64,000 nt of DNA from Thermoleptolyngbya sichuanensis A183 (GTDB taxonomy: Bacteria > Cyanobacteriota > Cyanobacteriia > Elainellales > Elainellaceae). The stretch spans positions 124,001 through 188,000 of the forward strand of contig NZ_CP053661.1 in the NCBI RefSeq assembly GCF_013177315.1, in the 5' to 3' direction. The translations under genes were made by a program, and so were the position numbers. Positions 44,624 through 53,002 of the stretch are shown here, one piece after another (positions within the stretch are counted from its first letter, which is position 1; each line of letters opens with the position of its first letter). Under the pieces are notes generated by a model that saw only the letters and a program-made list of their open reading frames with translations, did not search any database and was not told the origin of the DNA.

Positions 44624-45436
44624 CTATTCCGCTGGAGCAATCGGCGTGAGGACGATTTCCTCTTCGGATTCGCCCAGTTCCAGCACCTCCAGCAGTTCCA
44701 TCCAGGCGTTTAGCACGTCGAGATTGTCGGGATCTTCGCGGCGCAAGTTGCCCAAAAGGGTCAGCGCGTCGTACCAGATGCCGTTCTCTGCGTACAGGGC
44801 TGCCCGGTCGAGCGGCGAGGCGCGGTCGATTTCGCTGGTGAGTTCGGCATCCAGCGCAGTCCGCTGAATCCAGCCTTCTACGAATACAACCTCGCCGCCG
44901 CAGCGAGTCTGGAAGTTCCACCGATACATGCGCCCGATTTCCAGGGCTGGCGCAGTTTCGGGGAGGGAAATTCCGATAATGCCGGGTTGATTGCTCAGAA
45001 CAATGTCTTGTTTTCGGTAAATAATGCGGCGCTGATCGTCAAACAGCACAAATTCCGCTGGCTCATCGCTGGTCAGGGCGTAGGGAACGTAGAACCAGAA
45101 GGTGGGATGGGCGGCGGCAGTGAGGGCCCAGACGCTGGTGTACTCTCTGCCGTTGCGCCCAACCTCACGAGTGGACGGAACCAGGGCCGCTAGGGACTGG
45201 CATAGGGGCAGGTCGCCGCCACCTCGGCTGGCTCCGCCAAAGGGTCGCCCAGCGGGTGCGCCTGCTTCGGGCGGCAGCGGGGCCCGATAGCGATGACCAC
45301 CGCCCCCGATTGCCCGGTCTGCACCAGGTGCGTCGCCAGCCGATTCATAGCGCTGCGCCACGGCCGGAGCAGCGGACAAAACCAGAACCGCAGCAGCAAT
45401 CGCCGCAGACTTTAACCAAAACTTAGATGCATTCAT
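44624..45436 (-). CDS. DUF928 secreted protein
   Basis: A 270-residue protein with a signal peptide (FWLKSAAIAAAVLVLSAAPAVAQ). The DUF928 core is visible: TREVGRNGREYTSVWALTAA, HPTFWFYVPYALTSDEPAEF, the VLFDDQRRIIYRKQDIVLSN strand, PGIIGISLPETAPALEIG and MYRWNFQTRCGGEVVFVEGW. DUF928 proteins are cyanobacterial periplasmic/outer-envelope proteins of unknown role. The gene follows the CHAT-CHASE2 gene by 208 bp on the same strand. Confidence 0.85.
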   Translation of the reverse strand: MNASKFWLKSAAIAAAVLVLSAAPAVAQRYESAGDAPGADRAIGGGGHRYRAPLPPEAGAPAGRPFGGASRGGGDLPLCQSLAALVPSTREVGRNGREYTSVWALTAAAHPTFWFYVPYALTSDEPAEFVLFDDQRRIIYRKQDIVLSNQPGIIGISLPETAPALEIGRMYRWNFQTRCGGEVVFVEGWIQRTALDAELTSEIDRASPLDRAALYAENGIWYDALTLLGNLRREDPDNLDVLNAWMELLEVLELGESEEEIVLTPIAPAE

Positions 45437-45644
45437 GTCGGTGACCTCAACTCAAGGGGGCTAGTGGGGAGGCACGCAAATACAGGGGTTTGGGGGATGT
45501 GCAACCTCGCTAGAGGCTCCTGATTCTTCCCACAATATTCACTTCAGGAAATCTCTGCTCTTTTACGCAGCAAGACGAAAAGAGCGGGCTGGAGTTTCCT
45601 GACACTGGGTTTGGAGTCTTGGGAAGACTGGACTTTGCAGCCCT

Positions 45645-48284
45645 TTATTTGAACCGCTGACCGCGAGTCATGATCAGGATGAGATTGACGAAAAACAGGA
45701 GCGTCAGTTGCACTAGACGGTAGCGGTAGATCGTGACCAGGATGGCGCTGAGGCCAAAGGTCAAAACGGCCGGAACCAGCGGTATCCAGCCGCCCCAGAG
45801 AATTAGAATTCCCTGAGCGATCGCCCCCAACAGCAGCAGCCCCAGGGCGATCGCCCCTAATAACCGCCAGGGCGCTTTGAACAGCAGCACCAGCAGCCCG
45901 CCCAGCGCCGCCCACCCTCCAATCCACAGCATTTCTAGCCCGTGGGGCAACGTCCACAGCAGCGGCCGCTCGTTGAAAGCGGCACTAAGCAACTGGCTGG
46001 TCATCTGAGCCTGCACCAGTACCCCGTCCATTGTGGAAGCGATGGGCGTTCTCCAGATATCGGTCGATTGCTGCGGATCATGCGGAATGTATCCAACGAT
46101 AACCACGCGATCCTGAAACAGATCCGGCTGCACGCGCTCACTCAGCACATCGCTGATTTTCACCTGCCTAAATGGACTGTCGTACAGCGGGCGCACGGTG
46201 CGGTAGTTGAGCAAGACCTGCGCCCCGCGATAGTCAAAATTGGGGGCTTTATAGCCGCCCGATCGCCGTCGCAAGAGCGGATAGGTGCGATCGCCCAGCT
46301 TCAGCACCTCCGGCGTAATTTCTACGGGAATCTGCTCGGCTTCTAGATACCGACTGGCAAGCAGCGTGCTGAATGCAAAGTCGGGTAGGCAGCCTGTTTC
46401 GTCCGACAGTTCTTCGCGCATGGCCAGCAGGTGGCGGCGCACCATTCCAGGCTGGGACTGCGGCTGGCTCGATGGGGATACGGCAGCACTCGCAACTGGA
46501 CGGGGGGCGATTCCCCCAGGGATCGCTTCGCGAATCGCCCGCGCTTCTGCATTGATCTGGTGAACCTTCCGCTCTTTTTTGTCCTCAACAAAATCTGAAA
46601 ACCCCAGCCGAGTTGCCGCAATGTCTGCTGGGGGAGCAATGCCGCCCTCGCCCCGCACGGGCACTTTGCAAACGCCGATGACCTTTGGATTTTCGCGAAA
46701 CTGCTGAGCCAGCGACGCAGCTTCGGGTTTGATCGGCAGGTCACGATATAGGTCGATGCCGATTAACCGGGCACCGCTCTTGTCCAAGATTTCAATCAGG
46801 CGGTTCAGGTTCGCGTTCGATACCGAATACCAGTAGGGGCCAGACTGCTGCCCAAGGTCTTGCCGCTCTTGTTCGTCAATCGTGACAATCAGCAGGCGCG
46901 GGTCTTGTTCTTGCTCGGCGGGGCGCAGGCGCAGCATCTGGTCGTAGGTGGCGAGTTCGACAGGTTGCAGCCAGCCGAGCGATCGCCCCCCGATGACCAC
47001 TCCTGCTGCCAACGCGCTAAGGGCGATCGCCATTGGTACGCGGCGCAGCCCCCGGCGCAGGCGGCGCTGCCAGACTTCGCGGCGATGCAGGCGGCGGCGG
47101 TGCAGGCGAGTAGCGGCGGCAGGAGGGGGACTGGGCGACTCTGCGGGTTTGGACAATCGCCCTAGGAGGGACTGCCAGGTGGGCGGGCGCTCTGCCGGGT
47201 TTTGGCAAATGACGGGCAGCCAGGTGGCGCAGAGAAACTCGTTTTCCAAGACCTGGAGTTGCTCTCGCGCCCGCCGCACCGAGAGATAGAGCGACTCGCC
47301 CCGCACAAACGTTCGCAGGAAACTGGTGAGAAATTCCTGCGCCACCCGGTCGGGCACAGGTTCCCGCATCACCACCATTTGGGGAATGTGCAGGTCGGCT
47401 AGGGCGCGGGCCAGCCCCAGCCCATCGCAGGAGTTGAAAATCGCCAGCTTGAGTCCCTGGGTGGCGGCGTTTCGCAGGGCATAATGCAACTCTTCAATCG
47501 TCAGGGAATCGCTGGGGTTGATGGCGATGCGCCCGGTGTCGCCGCCTGCTGGGTCTGTGGCCAGTTCGGTGGAACTGTGCCCCGCAAAAAACAGAATGTC
47601 CCACGGCTGATCCCAGAGGCGATCGCTCAGTTCTTTGCGGTCGGGTTCTACCAGAAAGGTCACGTCGGCCTGGGGTGACAGGTGCATCAGCAGCGTGCGA
47701 TCGCCCTGCACGTCGATGCCCGCGCTGTTGCCCAAAATCGCCAAAATTCGTACCTTGCCCTTGGGCTTGGGCGGTTGCATCACCCGCTGATAGGTGGGGG
47801 CGCTGAGGGCAATTTCCAGGTGGGAATGCTGCTCAAATAGCTCTAGCAGATGCCACGGCAGCCGTTGCAGCAGCCGATCTTCCGTCTGCACAATCAGCCG
47901 CACGGTGTCAGTCGGCGACAGCGCTGCAAACCAAGTTTCGCGCACCCGCCGAAAGGATTCTGCCCGTAGCCACTCATTCAGGCGATCGCGCAATAGCCGG
48001 GCCGCCTGCTGACACGCCGCTCGACTCGCCGACCGCGACACATTTTTGATTTGATGGTCGGGCGCATTCAGCCGTGTGGCAATGCCCAACTGTCGATAGG
48101 CCATTTGCCATTGTTGATATAACGCCACCACCTCCGGCGCGGGCGGCAGTTTCCCCACCACCTCGGTTGTCAGTTGCATCGCCAGCCCTGAGGCCGCGTC
48201 TGTCTCTTCGCCGACCTGGAGCGTCGCCGGAAACCCCTGCTCAAAGCTGCCTTCACCAAATCGCAGCGTTACTAATTTGTCCAC
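45645..48284 (-). CDS. CHAT protease domain fused to CHASE2 sensor
   Basis: An 879-residue protein from a GTG start four bases past the DUF1822 stop. Residues about 100-362 form a CHAT domain with catalytic His236 in FFAGHSS and Cys286 in FNSCDGLGLA, the caspase-like dyad. After a basic Pro/Arg linker, a transmembrane segment (about 418-435) precedes the periplasmic CHASE2 domain (about 440-780: ELATYDQMLRLRPAEQEQD, VTIDEQER, VLLNYR, FQDRVVIVGYI). Three hydrophobic helices (about 787-870) end it. The layout puts the protease in the cytoplasm and the sensor outside, unlike canonical CHASE2 kinases and cyclases. Confidence 0.9.
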   Translation of the reverse strand: MDKLVTLRFGEGSFEQGFPATLQVGEETDAASGLAMQLTTEVVGKLPPAPEVVALYQQWQMAYRQLGIATRLNAPDHQIKNVSRSASRAACQQAARLLRDRLNEWLRAESFRRVRETWFAALSPTDTVRLIVQTEDRLLQRLPWHLLELFEQHSHLEIALSAPTYQRVMQPPKPKGKVRILAILGNSAGIDVQGDRTLLMHLSPQADVTFLVEPDRKELSDRLWDQPWDILFFAGHSSTELATDPAGGDTGRIAINPSDSLTIEELHYALRNAATQGLKLAIFNSCDGLGLARALADLHIPQMVVMREPVPDRVAQEFLTSFLRTFVRGESLYLSVRRAREQLQVLENEFLCATWLPVICQNPAERPPTWQSLLGRLSKPAESPSPPPAAATRLHRRRLHRREVWQRRLRRGLRRVPMAIALSALAAGVVIGGRSLGWLQPVELATYDQMLRLRPAEQEQDPRLLIVTIDEQERQDLGQQSGPYWYSVSNANLNRLIEILDKSGARLIGIDLYRDLPIKPEAASLAQQFRENPKVIGVCKVPVRGEGGIAPPADIAATRLGFSDFVEDKKERKVHQINAEARAIREAIPGGIAPRPVASAAVSPSSQPQSQPGMVRRHLLAMREELSDETGCLPDFAFSTLLASRYLEAEQIPVEITPEVLKLGDRTYPLLRRRSGGYKAPNFDYRGAQVLLNYRTVRPLYDSPFRQVKISDVLSERVQPDLFQDRVVIVGYIPHDPQQSTDIWRTPIASTMDGVLVQAQMTSQLLSAAFNERPLLWTLPHGLEMLWIGGWAALGGLLVLLFKAPWRLLGAIALGLLLLGAIAQGILILWGGWIPLVPAVLTFGLSAILVTIYRYRLVQLTLLFFVNLILIMTRGQRFK

Positions 48285-48288
48285 GGCT

Positions 48289-49257
48289 CTAAATCAAAAA
48301 TGCTTCTGTTGCGGTCGTGTCACCCAAGGCAACTTGCACCCCAAAGGTTTCGCCAGAGACTCCGCTAAATTGCAGTTGCAGATAGTCTTCGAGCGTGGTG
48401 GACTGAGCCTCTAAAAAAACAGTGCCCGACTCGTCCAGAATGCGGAGATATACGTTTGGCGGCAGGCTGGAAGTGCCAGGACTGGGATAAAGCTGGACGC
48501 AAATATCGGTTTGTCCAGGCTGTGTGGTGCTGAGGCTAAGTTCCATGACCAGCGGCAGCGAAACGCCCACCTCCACCAGCTTGGCGCGACGCACAGCGGC
48601 ATTGCTAAGCTGCCGAAAGGCATAGGCGGGGCTGAGCTGCTCTGGACTCAGGACGGCATCCACTGCGCTCCAGCCTGCGTCGATCGCCCCTTGCAGCCAT
48701 CGTCCCAACTGGTTGAGACTGACTCCTGCCCGTGCCAGCGTCGTAGCAACCAGGGGATGCAGCAGCCGATCAAGATGATCCATCAAATCTTCAGGGGGCT
48801 GGAGATGAGCAGGATGCAGCGCTGGTGGGCCGTCGTCCCCTGGTTCCAGGGTGGGGGTAAAGCCCAGAATGGAGGCCTCGCGCTGAGATGCGTCAATGTG
48901 AACCGCGACATACCCGATGCGATCGCCCCACACTTCGGGCGGCACTGGGCAGGGCGCGGATACATTTTGAACAGGGCGGCATTCCAGTCGGCCCGCACCA
49001 ATGACTTCCAAATCGGCAACGTCGGCCGTAAGACGGGCGATCGCATTCCAGCTATCTCCCCGCTCCAAGTCGGTGTCGATACCCATCATTTGTAAATAAT
49101 CATTGACCACCCACACCGCCAGCGTATTGTGACGCACCTGTTCGGCTTTGGCCGGAGTTGGCTGCTGGCTGGCAAACTGTTGGGCAAGCTGTCGGGCCGC
49201 CTGCGGCAGGGGCAGCGTTAATGCGAAATCGTCAATCTCGGCGGTGTTGTATGTCAT
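48289..49257 (-). CDS. DUF1822 family protein
   Basis: A 322-residue cytosolic protein with blocks AEIDDFALTLPLPQAARQLA, QVRHNTLAVWVVNDYLQMMG, VLSPEQLSPAYAFRQLSNAA and VRRAKLVEVGVSLPLVMELS. DUF1822 is a cyanobacteria-restricted family of unknown function that repeatedly occurs beside CHAT-CHASE2 and sigma-like genes. Its start is 27 bases after the sigma-like gene stop and its end is four bases before the CHAT-CHASE2 start, so the three are one operon. Confidence 0.9.
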   Translation of the reverse strand: MTYNTAEIDDFALTLPLPQAARQLAQQFASQQPTPAKAEQVRHNTLAVWVVNDYLQMMGIDTDLERGDSWNAIARLTADVADLEVIGAGRLECRPVQNVSAPCPVPPEVWGDRIGYVAVHIDASQREASILGFTPTLEPGDDGPPALHPAHLQPPEDLMDHLDRLLHPLVATTLARAGVSLNQLGRWLQGAIDAGWSAVDAVLSPEQLSPAYAFRQLSNAAVRRAKLVEVGVSLPLVMELSLSTTQPGQTDICVQLYPSPGTSSLPPNVYLRILDESGTVFLEAQSTTLEDYLQLQFSGVSGETFGVQVALGDTTATEAFLI

Positions 49258-49284
49258 AGGGTCAGTCCTCGGGCAAGTCCTCCT

Positions 49285-49923
49285 CTACAGATATCCCTCG
49301 GACTCGCCAAATTTACGCAGCCGGGGCAAACACTGCCGCTGGTAAAAACTACTCAGTGTGGAAATGGGCAGCCCAAACTCGGCTGAGATCTCTTCCCAGC
49401 TTGCTTCTGGCGGCAGCCGTCGCAGCAACAGCGCCTGACAGTTCACCTCCGGTCGCCCCTTGATGTGGGTTTTCACCAAATCGCCACTGCCGTCCGCTTC
49501 TACCCAGTCCCGCACGTCTTGCAAAATAGGCGGCACGTCGGGATTAGCCGCCAGGTTATCCACCGGATCAATCAGTTCCCCTGTCTCGCCAGAGCGTGAG
49601 GCCATACCCCGGACAGCGGCCCGCCGAGTTTCCTGCTCTCGACCTTGAATGTAAAAATCTTGCAGCCGCCGCTTCAGATAGGCGCTCAACCAGGTCACCA
49701 CGCTGCTCTGAGTGGGGTCGTATTTGCGGCCGGTCGTGGCTTCGCAGACGTTTTGGCAGAAATATACCCAGGTCTGCTGGAGCGCATCTTCGTAATAGGC
49801 GACATTCTCCCGCCACAGCTTGCGCGATGCCAGCCGGATCACCTTGGTCAAGGCCCGCTGACGCTGGGGGCTGCCAGGCGGGTGGCGACAGGCTTCGATG
49901 ACCAGTTCTTGCAGTTCGTCCAT
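49285..49923 (-). CDS. Sigma-70-like regulator
   Basis: A 212-residue protein with sigma-region-2-like LWRENVAYYEDALQQTWVYF and VVTWLSAYLKRRLQDFYIQG, and a C-terminal region-4-like HTH: CQALLLRRLPPEASWEEISA then EFGLPISTLSSFYQRQCLPR. It is shorter than a primary sigma factor. The start is ATG at 49923 (MDELQELVIEACRHP); the frame extends to a TTG at 49959. It likely directs or modulates transcription in response to the downstream CHAT-CHASE2 protein. First gene of the operon. Confidence 0.82.
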   Translation of the reverse strand: MDELQELVIEACRHPPGSPQRQRALTKVIRLASRKLWRENVAYYEDALQQTWVYFCQNVCEATTGRKYDPTQSSVVTWLSAYLKRRLQDFYIQGREQETRRAAVRGMASRSGETGELIDPVDNLAANPDVPPILQDVRDWVEADGSGDLVKTHIKGRPEVNCQALLLRRLPPEASWEEISAEFGLPISTLSSFYQRQCLPRLRKFGESEGYL

Positions 49924-50113
49924 CTCCGGGATCGGGGTTAAGGGCAGGGGCAGCAGCAAAAAAAGCGAAGCCCAGCAGGTTCACAAGTTGGCACATAGGA
50001 ACAACAGCCCGTTGTAGACGCACCTAACCGATGAACCCACTACATAGGATGCTTTACTCGTATCACAGTTCTGAACGCGATAAAGTTCCAAATTCTATAG
50101 AGTTTGTTGCAGT

Positions 50114-51327: not shown

Positions 51328-51781
51328 CGCTGGGCCGCTCTAGTGCCCAAAAGTTCTACGGGCAGGAAACAAGGCGGCCCCGTTCAGGGAACATTCGCCG
51401 CCAGGGTTCTGCCCGTCCTCGGCCCGTATTTTTAGGACTTGATATTCTAGGACTTGATATCAGAAGCCATCCTCCAGGCTCATCTGTTTGCCAGGTCAGC
51501 CTAGTAGAATGAGAGCAAGCCTGACGGAACTGGCGCAAGTCTTAGCGGTTTATCGCAGTTGCAGAGAGTTGAACCAGAGAGCTGGATCAACGAGTTGGAT
51601 CAACGCCTGAAAGCTTTGCTGACTTGTCTCAAACTTGCTTTCAGCCTGAATCTCATCTACTCCTCTCGCACAAGTGCTGCGGAGTCTTCACTCCCATCCC
51701 CTGCTATCAGCGTTAACGGTCTCCCAGGCAATGTCTTATCAGGCGGTGGGTTTTGCCGCCCCAATGCAGCCAGGAGGGCAG

Positions 51782-53002
51782 ATGAGGGCAGGTTGGCGAG
51801 TTGGCTCGATTTTTGGCATTCCACTGCTGGTTGACTCCTCATGGTTCCTGATCTTGGGGCTGTTTACCTATTCCAACAGCCTGATGTTGCAGCAAAGCCC
51901 AGGCTATCCAGCGGGTGTTGCCTGGATTACGGGACTTGGGCTGGCGCTGGCGCTGTTTGGGTCGGTGCTGCTGCATGAGTTGGGCCATAGCCTGACGGCG
52001 CGATCGCAGGGCATCGGGGTCAACTCCATCACGCTGTTTCTCTTTGGCGGCATTGCGTCCATCGACCGGGAATCCAAAACACCAGGGCAGATGTTTCAGG
52101 TGGCGATCGCCGGGCCAGCCGTCAGCTTCGCGCTATTTCTGCTGCTGGCTGGGGCAGCCCAAGTACTTCCCACGGATACCCCCCTGCACCTCATTGCCAC
52201 ACGGCTTTCTGCCATCAACCTGGTGCTGGCGCTGTTTAACCTGATTCCGGGTCTGCCGCTGGATGGTGGGCAAGTGCTGAAGGCGGCGGTATGGAAGCTG
52301 ACGGGCAGCCGCATCCAGGGAATGCGCTGGGCCGCCCGATCGGGACAGGCGCTGGGCTGGTTTGGCATTGCGCTGGCGGTAATGGCCTACATCCAGTCTC
52401 CCGCAGGCAGCATTAACGCCATCTGGCTGGGGCTAATCGCCTGGTTTATTTTGAGCAATGCCCGCGCCTACAGCCGCGTTTCGGATGTGCAGGAGGCTGT
52501 GGGCAAGCTGACGGCGGCGGACGCGATGACCCACGAGTTTCGCGTGGTCGATGCCGACCTCAGCCTGGAACGCTTTATCAGCGATTATGTGCAGCAGGAG
52601 GAAGCCTATCCACCGGCTTTCTATGCTGCGTCGGAGGGGCGCTATCGGGGTCAGGTCTTGGTCGAAGATGTGCAGCAGATCGAGCGCAGCCAGTGGAATC
52701 AGACGCTTCAAGAGATAGCTCATCCGCTTACAGAAATCCCTAGCGTTGCAGAAGCATCGCCCCTGTCAGATGCTATCAGCAAACTGGAAACCGAGACTTT
52801 GAAGCGGATTACAGTCCTCTCTCCGGCCGGAGCAGTGGCAGGCGTGCTAGATCGGGGCGACATTGTGCGAGCAGTAGCCAAGCAGTTGAATGTGCCTGTG
52901 CCCGATGCGCTGATCACTCGCATTAAAGAGGAAGGCGTGTATCCGCCGGGGCTGCCGCTGCCTGCGATCGCCACTTCGCTCAATGAAGACCGAAACGGTT
53001 AA
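51782..53002 (+). CDS. Site-2 protease (M50) with C-terminal CBS region
   Basis: A 406-residue membrane metalloprotease. After GWRVGSIFGIPLLVDSSWFL, helices carry the zinc motif HELGH (VLLHELGHSLTAR) and the distal NLIPGLPLDGGQVLKA with third-ligand Asp. A cytosolic tail (about 245-400) shows two CBS-like segments (TAADAMTHEFRVVDAD..., VLDRGDIVRAVAKQLN). Such intramembrane proteases cut anti-sigma or signalling proteins, and CBS domains sense nucleotides. The ATG at 51782 is chosen for the AGGAGG four bases before it; the frame also opens at 51674. Confidence 0.86.
   Translation: MRAGWRVGSIFGIPLLVDSSWFLILGLFTYSNSLMLQQSPGYPAGVAWITGLGLALALFGSVLLHELGHSLTARSQGIGVNSITLFLFGGIASIDRESKTPGQMFQVAIAGPAVSFALFLLLAGAAQVLPTDTPLHLIATRLSAINLVLALFNLIPGLPLDGGQVLKAAVWKLTGSRIQGMRWAARSGQALGWFGIALAVMAYIQSPAGSINAIWLGLIAWFILSNARAYSRVSDVQEAVGKLTAADAMTHEFRVVDADLSLERFISDYVQQEEAYPPAFYAASEGRYRGQVLVEDVQQIERSQWNQTLQEIAHPLTEIPSVAEASPLSDAISKLETETLKRITVLSPAGAVAGVLDRGDIVRAVAKQLNVPVPDALITRIKEEGVYPPGLPLPAIATSLNEDRNG

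Follow-up and report, generated by a model that had tools for sequence, protein, structure and literature searches.

A widespread cyanobacterial gene cluster encoding a CHAT-CHASE2 membrane protein with DUF1822, DUF928 and a predicted sigma factor, and its possible link to HetF-PatU-HetZ

A stretch of 64,000 nucleotides of Thermoleptolyngbya sichuanensis A183 (contig NZ_CP053661.1, positions 124,001 to 188,000; hereafter the window) contains a set of four genes, all on the minus strand, in the order sigma-like, DUF1822, CHAT-CHASE2 and DUF928. We examined this set as a candidate system in which a membrane-bound sensor and protease would act on a transcription factor. The gaps between consecutive genes are 27, 4 and 208 bp. 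The four genes, their positions and their spacings, already proposed in the initial annotation, agree with the open reading frame coordinates and with Pfam. The features, in window positions, are as follows.

49285..49959, minus strand: gene for a predicted divergent extracytoplasmic function (ECF)-type sigma factor (predicted fold; TTG start at 49959)
49624..49932, minus strand: its sigma region 2-like domain, about residues 10-112 (predicted model and structure matches)
49288..49530, minus strand: its sigma region 4-like domain, about residues 144-224 (model; aligns with the C-terminal part of the HetZ family)
48289..49257, minus strand: gene for the DUF1822 protein, proposed anti-sigma-like partner and substrate (Pfam 1.6e-67)
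48613..48615, minus strand: codon of Arg215 in DUF1822, proposed cleavage site (conservation and alignment with an arginine of PatU)
48292..48594, minus strand: Ig-like beta-sandwich domain of DUF1822, residues 222-322 (predicted model and fold matches)
45645..48284, minus strand: gene for one membrane protein with an EACC2-like N-terminus, CHAT and CHASE2 (GTG start; Pfam and hydropathy)
47910..48284, minus strand: its constant N-terminal region, residues 1-125 (conservation in 16 aligned sequences)
47241..47909, minus strand: its caspase-like CHAT protease domain, spanning residues 126-348 and presumably in the cytoplasm (Pfam score 54.3 bits against a cut-off of 24)
47577..47579, minus strand: codon of the catalytic His236 (GHS motif; dyad conservation)
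47427..47429, minus strand: codon of the catalytic Cys286 (NSCDG motif; dyad conservation)
46977..47048, minus strand: first membrane helix, about residues 413-436 (hydropathy)
45894..47006, minus strand: CHASE2 extracytoplasmic sensor domain, residues 427-797, membrane flanks included (Pfam 1.4e-51)
45660..45938, minus strand: C-terminal membrane helices, about residues 783-875 (hydropathy)
44624..45436, minus strand: gene for the DUF928 protein, with a signal-peptide-like N-terminus, proposed extracytoplasmic partner of CHASE2 (Pfam 9.5e-52)

The conservation of this neighbourhood was measured in two samples. A phylum-wide search for DUF1822 gave a match in 130 of 194 genomes, and 41 regions, the window included, were picked from the listed matches rather than at random; they hold 44 DUF1822 genes. 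In 38 of the 44, the next gene upstream, on the same strand, is sigma-like (23 short relatives of the window's gene and 15 long proteins), and in 31 the next gene downstream encodes CHAT. Seven of the long upstream proteins were scanned: four contain Pfam sigma regions over the cut-off, that of L066 has an NCBIfam sigma70-ECF match below the cut-off, and those of L045 and L065 have no Pfam sigma match. The remaining long proteins were linked by blastp, weakly in the L045/L053/L061 subgroup. For the second sample, public genomes were scanned with 16 aligned proteases and the best 80 of 561 confirmed relatives were taken; leaving out L187, whose frame runs off its contig, gave 79 readable loci. 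DUF1822 is directly upstream of the protease in 57 of these and within three genes in another 8 (65 in all), with one cut-off locus that could not be judged, and DUF928 is directly downstream in 72 and the second gene in one more. The recurrent adjacency in both samples rejects a chance or strain-specific neighbourhood and bears out the conservation beyond this strain that had been presumed at the outset: the four-gene cluster is widespread in cyanobacteria.

The layout also occurs in variants. The window's own genome has three DUF1822/CHAT pairs, each preceded by a sigma-like or long gene; CHASE2 is present in two of them, and the third has a periplasmic-binding domain. In one of the three (L045) the upstream partner is sigma-like only weakly. 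Two diverging DUF1822/CHAT/DUF928 sets are found in L046 (3645-13942), the region between them containing a single sigma gene, and in L188 and L193 one sigma gene stands between two diverging DUF1822 genes.

The third protein combines a protease domain and a sensor domain. The CHAT match (PF12770, E 1.8e-14) is above the cut-off, and His236 and Cys286 are invariant in 16 of 16 aligned sequences, the window's protein included. Both residues are kept in 30 of the 31 CHAT genes that were found solely as followers of DUF1822, the exception (L059) being a 140-residue fragment; the intact dyad described earlier is conserved in the homologues, and the initial reading was not refuted by its loss. Another 79 relatives (79 of 79) have the dyad as well, a count that is partly so by construction because those loci were found with patterns from both motifs. 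Ahead of CHAT, in the N-terminal 125 residues, K3, P47, W59 and Y63 are nearly invariant and W105 is invariant among the 16 aligned sequences; this region presumably corresponds to the EACC2 domain described by Kaur et al., an equivalence drawn from the description in that paper (PMC8195603). By hydropathy, the first membrane helix (about 413-436) comes after a very basic stretch and a cluster of helices follows at 783-875; CHASE2 is therefore predicted to lie outside and CHAT inside, the topology first proposed. Among ten relatives scanned, CHAT is constant and the C-terminal sensor part is exchanged, comprising CHASE2, Peripla_BP_6, nSTAND1/WD40, TPR or pentapeptide domains; nSTAND1 is present in two relatives. 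A search against PDB sequences found no relative of the CHAT-CHASE2 protein.

Most probably, the first protein is a divergent sigma factor of the ECF type, with a predicted role in RNA polymerase binding and transcription. Its predicted model (m1f500ab38e14) has a mean predicted local distance difference test score (pLDDT) of 82.7, and nearly all of the 50 rows listed in a structure comparison are, by title, sigma factors or sigma-bound transcription complexes. The whole model matches 1or7_B with Z 10.3 and a root-mean-square deviation of 18.5, the domains being set differently. Taken separately, region 2 matches 4lup_A (E. coli sigma-E region 2) with Z 9.5 and 2.0 Å over 86 residues, and region 4 matches 5fgm (SigR region 4) with Z 6.5 and 2.4 Å over 65 residues, although Z values below about 13 can be common among helical folds. 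With Foldseek, the top match was 1or7_A at E 3.5e-3, and none reached E 0.001 or better. The sigma nature assigned initially is thus borne out by the predicted fold. At the sequence level, the Pfam scan of the protein gave no sigma family match and the best NCBIfam sigma model reached 14.7 bits against a cut-off of 226; the alignment of relatives, searched against PDB sequences, had ECF sigma factors as top matches, with weak scores (SigK E 0.026, SigE 0.065). A long relative (L218, 4480-5685, minus strand) has an NCBIfam sigma70-ECF match at 1.5e-33. Some relatives (for example L195) begin at about an in-frame ATG at 49923, which may therefore be the start of the window's gene in place of the TTG at 49959.

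The DUF1822 protein was modelled from 44 sequences (mc79ef93563f1; mean pLDDT 89.3, predicted template modelling score 0.67). The predicted architecture consists of an N-terminal alpha/beta domain, a helical linker, a lower-confidence stretch at residues 211-220 (mean pLDDT 68) and a C-terminal beta sandwich. The sandwich (about 222-322) has a generic Ig-like fold as its top structure match (Z 8.1); Foldseek and VIA likewise returned generic beta-sandwich matches to the C-terminal part, in lists from which the absence of other families proves nothing. Sequence matches to the PDB were at chance level only, and no membrane helix was seen in the hydropathy profile. The TPR label given to DUF1822 in PMC8195603 was rejected, the protein having no Pfam TPR match and a model of alpha/beta and beta-sandwich type. 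Within the lower-confidence stretch lies Arg215, a position that is arginine in 76 and lysine in 4 of 82 DUF1822 sequences with variable flanks; the stretch, predicted as a variable, lower-confidence loop, is presumably exposed. Five genomes (L264-L268), which belong to a different family within the phylum, have the N-terminal half of DUF1822 embedded in longer frames of 525-1313 residues.

The fourth protein has a signal-peptide-like hydrophobic core at residues 8-26 by hydropathy, and no relative was found for it among PDB sequences. Ten genomes with 74 CHASE2 domains contain 55 DUF928 genes, after one of 56 matches, below the cut-off, was left out; 28 of the 55 lie within 3 kb of a CHASE2 domain and 27 do not. 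The association of DUF928 is with CHASE2 and not with CHAT alone. The periplasmic component originally suggested is accordingly seen as a probably exported partner of CHASE2, in view of the signal-like start, the 28 of 55 genes and the 72 of 79 protease loci.

The closest studied system is that of HetF, PatU3 and HetZ. In Anabaena, hetZ is followed by patU, there split into patU5 and patU3; PatU3 binds HetZ, and binding is lost when the C-terminal part of HetZ is missing (PMC7377430). HetF is described as a CHAT protease that cleaves PatU3 (PMC12288457), and PatU3 inhibits differentiation (PMC7377430, PMC12288457). The window resembles this system. Its protease carries a GHS/NSCxG/MxE signature shared with HetF, and its sigma-like gene is followed by DUF1822 as the HetZ gene is followed directly by patU. 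By contrast, HetF is encoded elsewhere in the genome and is a CHAT-TM-TPR protein, with TPR instead of CHASE2 (PMC8406250), so that its relationship to the window's protease is confined to the CHAT domain. HetZ carries no sigma factor annotation, and most of its sigma-70 region 4 matches fall below cut-off. That the window's protease is HetF itself was rejected (NF045509, 19.2 bits against an equivalog cut-off of 1200). The window's genome also contains a hetZ-patU pair and a HetF-like gene (L118, L130), the latter scoring 746.5 bits with the NCBIfam HetF model, below the 1200-bit cut-off.

The CHAT domains were compared in more than one way. HetF and the window type have in common LPW, GHS, NSCxG and the glutamate of MxE (25/26 and 10/10); five further CHAT domains from the window's genome (L001-L005) show TH[GA], [ST]AC and, at the position of MxE, tryptophan. 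An aspartate near MxE (312) is common to HetF, the window type and L001-L005. In a tree, HetF and the window type group apart from L001-L005 (support 100/100), under a midpoint root and with long branches flagged as possibly misleading. HetZ was located in nine loci with a model of HetZ relatives. Two of the nine proteins were tested with the NCBIfam equivalog model for HetZ, and both pass it; all nine can be aligned, with identities of 68-93% between the first and each of the rest. At each of the nine loci, including that of the window's genome, a PatU-like gene overlaps or directly follows HetZ.

Family alignments were then compared by hhalign after a redundancy filter at 85%, which reduced DUF1822 from 111 to 82 rows, sigma relatives from 43 to 36, long sigma relatives from 35 to 27 and PatU from 58 to 44. 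Sixteen HetZ-family sequences align with the 36 sigma relatives at E 1.1e-6 over 121 C-terminal columns. The 44 PatU sequences align with the 82 DUF1822 sequences with a score of 31.6 over 207 collinear columns that run to both C-termini. In controls, the highest score among 60 column-shuffled alignments was 23.0, over 20 columns, the reversed alignment scored 15.1, and the PatU query reached at best 21.0 with eight neighbour families other than PatU and DUF1822. We regard a relationship between PatU and DUF1822 as suggestive at this level. The alignment pairs Arg215 with a PatU arginine that is near-invariant (43 of 44 PatU sequences; Arg117 of the 258-residue form in L114), in a stretch that is variable in both families. 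This PatU arginine may be the site at which HetF reportedly cuts.

Other described systems have comparable parts. Kaur et al. (2021) describe a constant EACC2 plus caspase module with variable C-termini, CHASE2 among them, and most of their TRADD-N-independent EACC2 neighbourhoods also encode an ECF sigma factor and DUF1822 (PMC8195603). The window and its relatives share the variable C-terminus and the ECF sigma and DUF1822 neighbours, and the conserved N-terminus ahead of the caspase-like domain presumably matches the constant part. This kind of system is therefore already in print, and the initial view that the pathway was undescribed does not stand. The account differs from ours in that self-cleavage (autopeptidase activity) with sigma-mediated transcription is proposed, not cleavage of DUF1822, and in that DUF928 is not mentioned (PMC8195603); a literature search for DUF928 did not bring up this paper. 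A literature search for papers combining 'CHASE2' and 'CHAT domain' turned up none. In Craspase, Csx29, a TPR-CHAT protease, cleaves Csx30, which inhibits the ECF-type CASP-sigma; protease, inhibitor and sigma factor are encoded together, as are their proposed counterparts in the window; unlike the window system, Craspase is activated by an RNA-guided complex and not by a membrane sensor (PMC10028731). The searches made here showed no likeness between Csx30 and DUF1822. The long sigma relative of L218 has CASP-sigma (type III-E CRISPR) as its second-best NCBIfam model (1.7e-8, 34.7 bits, cut-off 100), far below the general sigma70-ECF model. RseA/sigma-E-type systems also couple an envelope signal to cleavage of an anti-sigma factor, with a membrane anti-sigma and DegS, RseP and similar proteins as proteases (in part from PMC10028731); in the window, by contrast, sensor and protease are one protein and DUF1822 has no membrane helix.

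Taken together, these observations are best explained by a membrane receptor-protease that controls a sigma factor, the CHAT domain cleaving an anti-sigma-like DUF1822 and freeing the sigma factor, a reading to which we give an even chance. The model for this mechanism is the cleavage by HetF of PatU3, which inhibits HetZ. DUF1822 would bind the ECF-type sigma factor encoded just upstream and keep it inactive. Judging by the domain architecture, CHASE2 and exported DUF928 would read an extracytoplasmic signal and thereby activate the cytoplasmic CHAT protease, which would cut DUF1822 at Arg215 and separate the alpha/beta and linker part from the beta sandwich. The sigma factor would then be released and its genes turned on. 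As substrate of the protease, DUF1822 is favoured over the sigma factor; its cleavage gains weight from the precedents of HetF-PatU3-HetZ (PMC12288457, PMC7377430) and of Csx29-Csx30-CASP-sigma (PMC10028731). A broader proposal, that HetF-PatU-HetZ is a specialised member of a broad cyanobacterial family of sensor-CHAT proteases, DUF1822 anti-sigma proteins and sigma factors, with a cut after a near-invariant arginine (Arg215 in the window, matching that of PatU) and with sensors such as CHASE2 plus DUF928, a periplasmic binding protein or STAND exchanged so that different signals lead to one and the same proteolytic release of sigma, is possible but falls somewhat short of even.

Several results weigh against these proposals. 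DUF1822 is absent from 13 of the 79 protease loci, and where it is present a sigma-like gene adjoining it was recognised in only 43 of 65, with no sigma-like gene in the locus in 20, some loci being cut short. Arg215 is kept in 28 of 31 DUF1822 genes with a CHAT neighbour and in 10 of 11 without; because it is equally conserved without such a neighbour, its conservation may be structural or reflect a site cut in trans. HetF reportedly cuts PatU3 after Arg117 (Xing et al. 2022), and the residue numbering of the Anabaena protein may differ from that of the form in L114. The alignment of HetZ with sigma relatives drops to E 0.005 when the true HetZ rows are used alone. That of PatU with DUF1822 is weak (E 0.0021, probability 13.5%), and the converse comparison, with DUF1822 as query, gives E 0.004 over only 80 columns, the next family scoring 18.5. 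One-way profile searches between the two families were unconvincing (lowest E 0.016, at a set database size of 1,000), and the Pfam DUF1822 model did not match any of the three PatU proteins scanned.

Some of these points would also fit a CHAT domain that mainly cuts itself, with a released cytoplasmic fragment acting on other targets and DUF1822 and the sigma factor serving as a transcriptional arm that is not proteolysed. Activation as an autopeptidase is what Kaur et al. propose (PMC8195603), the 13 of 79 loci have CHAT and DUF928 without DUF1822, and the conservation of Arg215 is independent of a CHAT neighbour. On the other hand, the substrate reported for the related HetF is a protein other than itself, PatU3 (PMC12288457), and DUF1822 is encoded directly ahead of the protease in 57 of 79 loci; we consider predominant self-cleavage unlikely. 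The polarity of the proposed switch could also be the reverse, DUF1822 acting positively on the sigma factor, as its partner or scaffold, and CHAT-CHASE2 binding or degrading DUF1822 to turn the response off. The results obtained would fit either polarity, and 11 of 13 DUF1822 genes without CHAT directly downstream have a sigma-like gene directly upstream; but PatU3 inhibits differentiation in the closest studied system (PMC7377430, PMC12288457) and Csx30 inhibits its sigma factor (PMC10028731), and this arrangement seems quite unlikely to us. Least probable, and doubtful indeed, is a cell-death or anti-phage module whose protease kills or arrests the cell with the sigma factor as an accessory, for although EACC2 systems were found by tracing conflict-system domains, some with TRADD-N partners or STAND sensors (PMC8195603), and nSTAND1 occurs in two relatives, the pairing of CHASE2 with DUF928 points to an outside signal, and none of the four proteins of the cluster had a PADLOC match at E 0.01, which leaves a catalogued defence system unsupported.

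If cleavage of DUF1822 by the receptor-protease is correct, a family found described only in silico would become a tractable class of receptor-proteases that control sigma factors as single proteins, and would offer both an evolutionary source and a mechanism for the HetF-PatU3-HetZ circuit of heterocyst development. Roles for DUF1822 and DUF928 would be explained, in parallel to the sigma switch of Craspase, and a change at the single residue Arg215 should block the pathway. The connection to heterocyst control and the predicted cleavage at Arg215 are the newer parts, and the ones worth testing.

Loci with CHAT-CHASE2 and DUF928 but without DUF1822 are L205, L206, L207, L219, L220, L223, L225, L226, L235, L239, L247, L257 and L261. 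Among the upstream genes scanned in such loci, four are of kinds linked to secretion or transport (one each with a TPS domain, RTX repeats, an ABC transporter and HlyD), which suggests another use of the sensor-protease.

Around the cluster in the window, a promoter scan gave results near shuffle level (2 promoter-like sites against a shuffle mean of 1.8) and a terminator scan results below it (4 terminator-like sites against 5.5 in shuffles). The gene trpF lies upstream and an alpha/beta hydrolase gene downstream, and the cluster is therefore bounded by ordinary genes. Near the sigma cluster, at 51674-53002 on the plus strand, a frame resembles, by its translation alone, a site-2 protease with CBS domains.

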